A stretch of DNA of 27,590 bases from a virus. Shown here one piece after another: positions 3,967 to 24,199 of this stretch. A program made the translations under genes and the position numbers. The notes beneath the pieces were generated by a model that saw only the letters and a list, made by a program, of their open reading frames with translations, ran no database searches and had not been told where the DNA came from. Where the stretch lies: IMG/VR virus record IMGVR_UViG_3300042902_000064, positions 64,001 through 91,590 of that record; one strand, given 5' to 3'. How positions within the stretch are numbered: position 1 is the stretch's first letter; every line of letters begins with the position of its first letter.

Positions 3967-4600
3967 ACAGACGAGTCTCTGCAACTGGACGAGGTTCTAC
4001 TTGGTGTGCAGAAACTGAAGCCATAACATAAAAAATAGTGCGTACTGCAGCTCTGTCCACAGCACTTCGCGCTAGAGCTTCAGCAAGATCTATTGCTTTC
4101 TGCAGACCTTTTGGGTTATATTTAAACTGCTCTACTACTTTAACCACACCAGATACTGCAGAACATACTGCGTAGAATGATGTAGGTTCTGTGATTACTA
4201 AAGCATTAAACTTCTCAGCTTTAGTTGGCTTTGGCTCTTTAGTGTTCATAAGGCTATCTATATATTGTTTATCTTTAAAACCAGCAAAACATGTTTTAGC
4301 ATTAATTGTTGGATCCATTTGTTTTTCCTCTTTCATTGATTGTCTTAATTGGCTACTAGATATAACTTTTATGTACCTAGTAGAGTCTTTGTTTGTATTT
4401 TCTATACATTCTACTGAAGATAGTTGATAGGCAAATGATCTTCCAGACCCCTCCTTTGCATGTAGGTCAAATGTAACACTAACTTTAATCTTAGAGCCGT
4501 CCTCAAATACATCTGTGATGTACCCTCTATAACCGACCTTATTACCATTACCTATATACTCAACTCTAGCTCCTACTAGGTATTCTGCTCTTGTTGTCAT
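3956..4600 (-). CDS. Hypothetical protein, 214 aa
   Basis: The start is placed at the ATG at 4600, which has GAGG upstream and overlaps the previous stop (TAATG). Residues about 8-65 look like a beta-rich domain (GARVEYIGNGNKVGYRGYITDVFEDGSKIKVSV). A charged linker follows, and residues about 130-205 are Ala/Val-rich helical (FYAVCSAVSGVVKVVEQF, AIDLAEALARSAVDRAAVR). The helices are amphipathic and do not look like membrane spans. I do not recognise a family. Two domains joined by a linker suggest binding, not catalysis. Confidence 0.75.
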   Translation of the reverse strand: MTTRAEYLVGARVEYIGNGNKVGYRGYITDVFEDGSKIKVSVTFDLHAKEGSGRSFAYQLSSVECIENTNKDSTRYIKVISSSQLRQSMKEEKQMDPTINAKTCFAGFKDKQYIDSLMNTKEPKPTKAEKFNALVITEPTSFYAVCSAVSGVVKVVEQFKYNPKGLQKAIDLAEALARSAVDRAAVRTIFYVMASVSAHQVEPRPVAETRLYEV

Positions 4601-4767
4601 TAGTGAACCTCCCATATTTTCTCACACAGCCCACACTTAGCTGATTTTTTATCTTCAAACCTAAATACTAATATAGCTACTTCTGGGTGTGTACAAGCAT
4701 CTTGTATTTCTCGTATTTGTTCGTTTATATCTGCACGTTTTTTCTTTAATGTTTTAATTAGGCTCAT
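4600..4767 (-). CDS. Small protein with Cys/His zinc-binding pattern, 55 aa
   Basis: The start is set at the ATG at 4767 (GAGGGATTT upstream), not the in-frame ATG at 4791. The N-terminal half is a basic helix (LIKTLKKKRADINEQIREIQ). The C-terminal half holds a C-T-H and C-G-L-C pair arrangement (DACTHPEVA... KCGLCEKIW) that could bind one zinc ion, as in a minimal zinc ribbon. It overlaps both neighbours. A nucleic-acid or protein contact role is plausible but not shown. Confidence 0.72.
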   Translation of the reverse strand: MSLIKTLKKKRADINEQIREIQDACTHPEVAILVFRFEDKKSAKCGLCEKIWEVH

Positions 4768-5059
4768 TTTCAAATCCCTCAGTATATTCAAAGCCTAAGT
4801 CTTTTAAAGCATCTATAGTTACCACATCTAGTTTCATTATATTAAACAATGCTTCATCTTGTGCCTCTATATCAACAGTACCTAGGAACATACCAAACTC
4901 ATTAGTACCAAACACTCCGATAAGGTATTCATCTGCATCTTTATCGTAGTATGCAGTTACTTCTACCATAGAACCAAAGAAATTATCCTCAAAATCGTCA
5001 GATGAAGGCTTATAAAATTGGTAGTCTATGTTTGTTGGTTTATATAGTTCTTCTGACAT
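4754..5059 (-). CDS. Hypothetical acidic protein, 101 aa
   Basis: Strongly acidic (DDFEDNFFGS, YYDKDADEYL, EYTEGFENEPN), with beta-like segments around residues 30-60 and a hydrophobic helix near 70-90. The ATG overlaps the SprT-like gene's stop (TAATG) and has a GAGGAG ribosome site. No motif is recognised. The acidity is of the kind seen in DNA-mimic or inhibitor proteins of phages, but composition alone is weak evidence. Confidence 0.75.
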   Translation of the reverse strand: MSEELYKPTNIDYQFYKPSSDDFEDNFFGSMVEVTAYYDKDADEYLIGVFGTNEFGMFLGTVDIEAQDEALFNIMKLDVVTIDALKDLGFEYTEGFENEPN

Positions 5060-13293: not shown

Positions 13294-13363
13294 ATTAAAA
13301 AGACCTCTCACACCACGCAATTAGAGCGGAAATGTCAAGTCTATAAACACTAAAGGTAATCAA

Positions 13364-15173: not shown

Positions 15174-16213
15174 ATAAGATTGAGAAATCGGAAACGGTTT
15201 CAAAACGCAAGGCAAGCACGTTACGCTTCCAACAAGTTTAGGGTGTTTTAGGTCTCATACGTGCTCCTCGGGGTAATTAACGAGATAAAAACTTAATTTC
15301 TGGTAAAACCCTTCCCAGAAGCCGACAAATATATGGCTTGGCATGAGAACTAGGCGCGAGTTTAGGGAAAGGAGAGAAGCAACAACTCTTCTCCACTGCA
15401 AGGTGGTCAATCCAAGCAAGCCCAACCCGCTTCCGCAAGGAAGTCTTCAGTAATTTCGAGAGCTGGAGAATATTAGAACGTAAAGATAAGAAAAGCATAC
15501 TGGGTAACTCCGAAGTATGAAACTGCTGTGAGAGGCAAGTACTTATACTCAAACTTTATTACTAAAAATGGGGAAAGGTAGGAACATCAGTCCAAGTCTA
15601 ATAAACAAGGGCAGGTTCCAGTTTGATAGGAAATGGGTGGCGTGTGAAATCGTTCAAACATTATCTTGAAAGACAGCTAAGTAACGTAATTGCGTGAAAG
15701 GCAATAGCTGAGTGTATTATATCGTAGTTCAAAAGATTACGGCATTACTGGTTGCGCACTTAGTAGTTGAATATAACTTTGTTGATTAACGGTAAATCAA
15801 TTCCCTCTTAAGGAATCTATGTTGGTTCAAATCCAGCCTATAAATGCAAAGACGTAACCGCTACATATCGTAAATGGTCAAATTCTGGAAACGAAAGTTA
15901 ATCCAGAGCTTAGACACTCGCAAGGTGAATAAGTTTTATACTGAACGCAACGACCTGTCCTTTAGCGGGGATAGCCGAACCAGAAGGTGTAGAGTAGATA
16001 TGTAGGACAGAGCCAGCTGCCCAGCTCTTTAATCAAAGGCGACCATGAGCATCAACTACCGAGAGGAAGTGGACAAGCGACTAACAAATAAGGTTAGCGA
16101 ATGGGTGTTCCGTTAAAGGTGTAATCTCAACCTTAACAAAATATAAGTAAGTAATCTTAGTAAGCATCGGCAAGCCTTATGGGTGAGTTGACTTGATAAC
16201 CTTTTAGATTACT
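15174..16213 (+). ncRNA. Large structured non-coding RNA candidate (about 1.04 kb)
   Basis: No credible gene is present on either strand, yet two promoters point into it. Base pairing is rich: AGCACGT/ACGTGCT (15215-15265), CTTCC-GCAA-GGAAG near 15435, CTGTCCT/AGGACAG (15955-16020), TAAGGTT/AACCTTA near 16100, TCTGG/CCAGA enclosing AAC-GAAA-GTT, and AGTAATCT/AGATTACT closing the 3' part. GNRA loops and a tRNA-like core (15782-15837) fit a large ornate RNA. From memory GOLLD and ROOL RNAs share size and phage/tRNA context, but I cannot match sequence. The 5' and 3' ends are approximate. Positions 16214-16329 hold little beyond a T-rich stretch. Confidence 0.65.
15782..15837 (+). other. tRNA-like core (CTT anticodon loop) without acceptor stem
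   Basis: D-arm TTGAT/ATCAA with GG in the loop, anticodon stem ATTCC/GGAAT with loop CTCTTAA (CTT, lysine-like), a 4-base variable loop, and T-arm GTTGG/CCAGC with loop TTCAAAT. No 7-bp acceptor stem or CCA flanks it. Instead CTTTG (15777-15781) and CAAAG (15847-15851) can pair. It looks like a tRNA body built into the larger RNA. Confidence 0.6.
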
Positions 16214-23440: not shown

Positions 23441-23591
23441 AAAGTACCTAGCCACTTAATAAAGATATATGCGGAGTCTTAGAGGGTTAATAGACTGATA
23501 AGTAACACCCTAGGAAGCGAACGTAAGGCTACCTCTTTACTTTCCGCGGGTCTAGTCAGCGATATATAGTTGCTGTCGTGGGTACTTTTTT
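23441..23591 (+). ncRNA. Helix-closed element ending in a T run, before the tmRNA
   Basis: AAAGTACC (23441-23448) pairs with GGTACTTT (23581-23588), and the 3' strand runs into six T. A hairpin CAGC/GCTG lies near the 3' end, and GCGGA/TCCGC (near 23471 and 23545) closes the interior. The T run makes a terminator or attenuator possible, though the helix spans 150 bases. It could otherwise be a 5' structural part of the tmRNA precursor. Confidence 0.5.
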
Positions 23592-23971
23592 CCTATCTGC
23601 CATGTGTAGAAAAGGTTACGGTAGCGTCTTATGGCGCTATCAGCATTATTGTTGTATGAAGCAGACAACAGACCTCTTGGACGGCGGTTCGACTCCGCCC
23701 TACTCCACCAAAATAATACTTAGCTGTTAGGTAGTCGTACAACTACTTATAAGTGAAAGAACTAAGAACATAGAGACTGTACGGTTTCTGAATAATGCAC
23801 TAGACCTGAACAGTCTAGGGATTCCTCTCGTTCGATGGGCTTGGCTCTCGCCATGTAGCATAAGAAGTTTTAGTATTATTTTGATGGGGTAGCTTGGTTT
23901 CGACAGGAGGGGGAAGGCAAGCGGACAACACGAGCGGAAATACTCGTAAAACAGAATGAACTAACTTAAAC

Positions 23972-24004
23972 GCAAATGACAACATTTACGCTCTAGTAGC
24001 CTAG
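23972..24004 (+). other. tmRNA tag reading frame (ANDNIYALVA)
   Basis: The resume codon GCA at 23972 opens a 10-codon frame reading Ala-Asn-Asp-Asn-Ile-Tyr-Ala-Leu-Val-Ala and ending in TAG at 24002-24004. The start AND and end YAL-A match the bacterial tag pattern (E. coli ANDENYALAA counted from its resume codon). The LVA ending is a functional degradation signal in engineered ssrA tags, so tagged proteins should still reach ClpXP-type proteases. Confidence 0.88.
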
Positions 24005-24163
24005 CTTCTAGATGGAGTTGGCAACTTACTTTATAAAATAAAAGTTGCATCTATTAATAACTAAAAGGTGGTGAAACGTATGTGGACAAAACCTCAGTAC
24101 TCAGATATGCGCTTCGGTTTCGAAGTAACAATGTATATTTGTAGCCGTTAGTATTAAATTTGG

Positions 24164-24199
24164 GCGACTTACCTGTCTTGATAGGTGGGTCGCTTTTTT
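24164..24199 (+). terminator. Rho-independent terminator of the tmRNA
   Basis: GCGAC (24164-24168) pairs with GTCGC (24189-24193), with inner ACCT/AGGT, followed by six T (24194-24199). It is the only strong terminator found in the rightward half. Confidence 0.92.

Follow-up and report, generated by a model that had tools for sequence, protein, structure and literature searches.

Two-piece tmRNAs account for 53 of the 133 unique tmRNAs counted in phages, almost all of them marine or aquatic (Buchholz 2022, PMC9004378), so that the gene described here is not the first two-piece phage case. A first-pass annotation of this DNA had taken phage tmRNAs to be one-piece, a view contradicted by that 2022 report and by our own searches, in which 17 of the 24 tmRNAs called by ARAGORN among IMG/VR pattern matches were permuted, although this figure is no census because the search pattern prescribed some of the acceptor-stem sequence. 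Melnitz, a myophage of Methylophilales, encodes a permuted tmRNA that is reported to be closest to alphaproteobacterial ones and is tied to a glutamine riboswitch (PMC9004378). A 2020 paper (PMC7678222) had already described a methylotroph phage with PqqA. In the open-licence literature we found no description of a T5-like carrier, of a host of the one-piece type or of a tmRNA–pqqA neighbourhood.

The phage studied here is represented by a window of 27,590 bases (bases 64001-91590 of a 91,590-base IMG/VR virus record). It likewise encodes a permuted tmRNA and apparently infects a methylotroph, as Melnitz does, and both phages carry a pqqA-like frame. In contrast to Melnitz, the window phage appears to be T5-like, its tmRNA is not of the alpha type, and a long intervening segment (175 bases) separates the two pieces; in the permuted genes delimited in alpha- and betaproteobacterial genomes this segment spans 5-115 bases, and in most cases some 20-50. 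An Rfam search of the window with E up to 1 gave no riboswitch match. The window tmRNA resembles the Rfam family RF04321 (tmRNA_permuted) over the whole tRNA-like domain and the start of the tag, with a score over the cut-off, and has the GGTTCGA T loop and general layout in common with the beta-type family RF01850, which occurs in cells and in the phage contigs L012 and L029. The one-piece tmRNA of Methylophaga has a nearly equal tag (ANDNNYALAA against ANDNIYALVA in the window) but the standard gene order, and is 56-59% identical to the window tmRNA in the compared parts. The frame in Melnitz (MZ577097.1; L314 15001-15066) lies beside a tRNA-Leu gene and is not annotated as PqqA, the annotated CDS being on the opposite strand.

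The permuted tmRNA gene and its carrier phage

The record holds phage-type genes for DNA polymerase, a DnaB-like helicase, an SbcC-like nuclease subunit, ribonucleotide reductase, head proteins and terminase. For both the terminase and the polymerase, the closest named records come from Vibrio and Enterobacter phages (43-48% identity), and from the names of these records together with the set of replication and packaging genes we read the carrier as a T5-like phage. Permuted tmRNAs would thus be spread by phages other than the reported marine myophages as well, here by a T5-like lineage. ARAGORN finds 21 tRNA genes in the window, with the tmRNA after them. No smpB was found in the 91.6-kb record or in the 58-kb contig of a relative (L041), both of which are possibly fragments, and a blastn comparison of the tmRNA region with 50,697 phage records returned no match.

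The phage does carry a circularly permuted tmRNA gene, as had been claimed. ARAGORN calls a permuted tmRNA (tmRNA*) at 23618-24095 with the tag ANDNIYALVA, and RF04321 matches 23650-24004 over the whole model (1-213) with 107.8 bits (gathering threshold 47, E 1.9e-20), whereas the standard one-piece model RF00023, for which 47 bits are needed, matches as two halves only, in swapped order, with 33.9 and 28.0 bits. The features of the region are as follows.

23441..23592, + strand: candidate conserved non-coding RNA, not tmRNA; a T run and a separate closing stem are present (125/148 identical in L041)
23649..23710, + strand: acceptor piece with the 3' strand of P2, T arm, 3' strand of the acceptor stem and encoded CCA (RF04321 start at 23650 and L041 comparison; about 15 bases' uncertainty at the 5' end)
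23711..23885, + strand: intervening segment, 175 bases, presumably removed when the RNA matures, with a closing stem beside the acceptor stem (fold and relatives' stems)
23886..24004, + strand: start of the coding piece, with GGGGTAG as the 5' strand of the acceptor stem, GGTTTCGAC, 5' strand of P2, hairpin and tag frame (ARAGORN, RF04321, L041)
23972..24004, + strand: tag frame ANDNIYALVA-stop, resume codon GCA (ARAGORN; ANDNIYALAA in L041)
24005..24079, + strand: remaining coding piece (helix after the tag), 3' end approximate (fold; poorly conserved in L041)
24080..24151, + strand: pqqA-like gene, outside the tmRNA (Pfam PF08042, 45.8 bits against a cut-off of 21.1)
24162..24199, + strand: intrinsic terminator behind pqqA (predicted at 24162-24195)

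The permuted order is evident from the CCA at 23710, followed by GGGGTAG at 23886 and the tag at 23972. As the first-pass annotation had noted, the acceptor strands CTACTCC and GGGGTAG form seven of seven pairs, one of them a G-U, which falls at position 3-70; a G3-U70 pair is an identity element for alanyl-tRNA synthetase. The tRNA-like part also has a canonical T arm with the GGTTCGA loop and the GGTTTCGAC signature, confirming the proposed 5' hallmark in the coding piece, and P2 is formed by 23650-23654 with 23926-23930. The tag frame was likewise read correctly, and the predicted terminator exists, though behind pqqA. A PK1-like stem had also been noted: the hairpin ACGAG/CTCGT lies in the coding piece ahead of the tag, and inspection by eye found no second stem pairing the hairpin loop with the sequence before the tag.

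The interval first assigned to the tmRNA, 23592-24199, overreaches at either end. L041 has some 270 bases, including an ORF, between its counterpart of the element at 23595-23646 and the acceptor piece, so the acceptor piece most likely starts near 23649 and not at 23592. At the other side 24080-24151 is pqqA, and because the ARAGORN end (24095) falls inside this gene, the coding piece either ends earlier or overlaps it.

Conservation of the mature pieces and of the intervening segment

Between the window and L041 the acceptor piece is identical at 62 of 62 positions and the coding piece up to the tag stop at 116 of 119, or 178/181 (98%) for the mature pieces together, whereas the intervening segment retains 98/165 (about 59%) with 31 gap columns. 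For comparison, pqqA has 62/72 and the adjacent endolysin gene 361/386 identical positions. The segment is predicted to fold in both phages (z -3.95 in the window, -5.41 in L041), and its closing stem, CAAAATAATACT/AGTATTATTTTG in the window and CATATAACTTTTT/AAAAAGTTATATG in L041, occupies the same position with its pairs mostly changed on both sides. A third relative, L441, whose terminase is 56% identical, reaches 108.9 bits on the permuted model and has the tag ANDNDFAMAA; its intervening segment has a closing stem of its own, with TTGAT just before GGGG, and its acceptor stem (GGGGCTG/CAGCTCC) has two pairs changed on both sides while pairing in full and keeping G3-U70. The segment lengths are 175, 186 and 180 bases in the window, L041 and L441 respectively, and range from 20 to 194 bases in other phage contigs. 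Since the mature pieces are 98% and the segment only about 59% identical, and since the closing stem is compensated, also in the third relative, the gene is under selection and is probably functional. The long intervening segment and its compensated closing stem amount to a natural experiment on precursor maturation.

The pqqA neighbour and the probable host

The encoded PqqA has the E-x-x-x-Y motif (E15 and Y19 in EVTMY) and keeps 21 of 23 residues in L041, where pqqA also lies behind the tmRNA, at a larger distance than in the window. A genome scan found PqqA of the exact phage type in at least 107 stretches, with titles that are nearly all Methylophaga, other gammaproteobacterial or Pseudomonadota MAGs, and 20 of 22 residues are identical to the PqqA that dominates in Methylophaga among the matches listed. 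PqqA-like matches among annotated phages lie mostly in phages of Methylophilales, and pqqA therefore marks phages of methylotrophs. From this one small peptide we infer a Methylophaga-like host. The combination with the tmRNA is not a general one: ARAGORN detected no tmRNA at the remaining viral loci with pqqA, and the sequence read behind the L441 tmRNA showed no pqqA. In the Methylophaga genomes themselves (L046-L152) pqqA occurs in many dispersed copies, and a single genome often has several. A 38-base, 92% match of window 13303-13340, just after a tRNA-Ser gene, was considered as a CRISPR-spacer link to Methylophaga and rejected, since there are no repeats around the matching sequence (L317).

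Of the 18 genomes to which the listed PqqA loci led, 15 have a one-piece tmRNA above cut-off; the tags that ARAGORN could read among these are ANDNNYALAA or ANDNNYSLAA. The sole permuted match above cut-off among the 18 is in Kmv26, a Methylophaga-like MAG that has its own one-piece tmRNA besides the permuted one. The permuted gene (L231 15359-15907, tag ANDNNFAQAKIAA) is on a 209-kb contig (G016:C4) with genes for DHFR, a ClpP-like protein and ribonucleotide reductase amid small ORFs of no assigned role, and this contig looks like a large phage. With one-piece tmRNAs in 15 of 18 genomes and the permuted match on a phage-like contig, the likely host offers no explanation for the permuted architecture. 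If the host indeed has its own one-piece tmRNA, as it appears to, both architectures can serve in one cell.

Function and origin of the permuted form

We conclude that the locus is very probably a circularly permuted ssrA gene of a T5-like phage that works as a two-piece ribosome-rescue tmRNA. By analogy with known two-piece tmRNAs, a precursor would be transcribed acceptor piece first, and the intervening segment would fold back via a closing stem that would stack onto the acceptor stem, so that the two processing sites would lie side by side. Host tRNA-processing enzymes would then cut the precursor, RNase P at 23885/23886 and an endonuclease, with trimming, at the encoded CCA (23710), and the two released RNAs would be held together by the acceptor stem and P2. 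The host alanyl-tRNA synthetase would charge this RNA via G3-U70 and host SmpB would deliver it to stalled ribosomes, where the tag ANDNIYALVA would terminate the stalled chain and mark it for host proteases, giving added rescue capacity during infection alongside the 21 phage tRNAs. We suggest more tentatively that a two-piece tmRNA of foreign type with a near-host tag, in one expression unit with the PQQ precursor gene pqqA and in a host of the one-piece type, might supply rescue together with a methanol-oxidation cofactor.

Two other accounts of what the gene does have to be weighed against ribosome rescue. That a captured ssrA is simply decaying or being carried along here, without function, could be argued from the metagenomic nature of the contig, the poor conservation of the region after the tag and the failure of the lineage models to reach their cut-offs; such a copy is nevertheless hard to reconcile with a 98% identity that is restricted to the mature pieces, an intact tag frame, closing and acceptor stems that are compensated in relatives, and a permuted tmRNA in the more distant L441, and we regard it as highly improbable. 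Alternatively, the gene might interfere with host trans-translation by occupying host SmpB or ribosomes as a decoy, an action reported for a tag-less tmRNA-like gene in phage DS6A (according to the citation in PMC11915505). The phage does carry a tmRNA though its likely host has a one-piece copy, and no smpB was found in its record, but the tag frame, the stop codon and the alanine identity pair, all dispensable for a decoy, are intact and conserved, which makes this reading very unlikely as well.

As to origin, the first-pass annotation had suggested acquisition from a host with a permuted ssrA. This suggestion is weakened, as PqqA points to a Methylophaga-like host and 15 of 18 such genomes have the one-piece form; one-piece tmRNAs in Methylophaga-type genomes argue against simple acquisition from that host. 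Of the model searches it had proposed, ARAGORN gave its permuted call, while the Rfam models for the alpha, beta and cyano types all stayed below cut-off: RF01849 gave 25.7 bits (cut-off 50), RF01850 36.0 (cut-off 84), the best of the three, and RF01851 28.8 (cut-off 70). L041 is also below the cut-off on RF01850 (37.2 bits), whereas the beta-type phage contigs L012 and L029 score 106.7 and 105.7. The window tmRNA is clearly not alpha-type. In both of our trees, which have about 180 columns and leave out the cyanobacterial permuted sequences (compared by model score only), the window group is separate from both the alpha and the beta permuted clade, without firm placement.

This separation would fit an independent permutation in phages of a one-piece gammaproteobacterial-type gene, an origin that is compatible with a functional tmRNA and that might also account for the likeness of the phage and host tags. 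A single clade of all permuted rows had p 0.02 in the first test, in line with such an origin; when long branches were left out, however, p was 0.116 for all permuted rows and 0.204 for the non-alpha ones, neither significant. A grouping with the Methylophaga one-piece genes, for its part, was not supported (p 0.02 in the first test, 0.31 without long branches). With only about 180 columns in the trees, and with 18 contiguous bases of the acceptor piece, TTATTGTTGTATGAAGCA, recurring in the phage permuted tmRNA L033, which itself groups with other permuted phage rows in the second tree, we give an independent permutation little credence. The common stretch points to an ancestry shared with other permuted tmRNAs of phages.

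Several further elements lie near the tRNA and tmRNA genes. The candidate at 23441-23592, between tRNA-Glu and the tmRNA, had no match in Rfam and has a counterpart at 2096-2242 of L041 with the same overall closing fold. The element at 23595-23646 (L041 2245-2297) is short and conserved, with a hairpin. Upstream of the tRNA cluster, window 15707-16133 holds a GOLLD RNA (171.3 bits) with a tRNA-like match within it at 15779-15840, and the L041 contig also has a GOLLD RNA, at 4398-4818 (174.4 bits).
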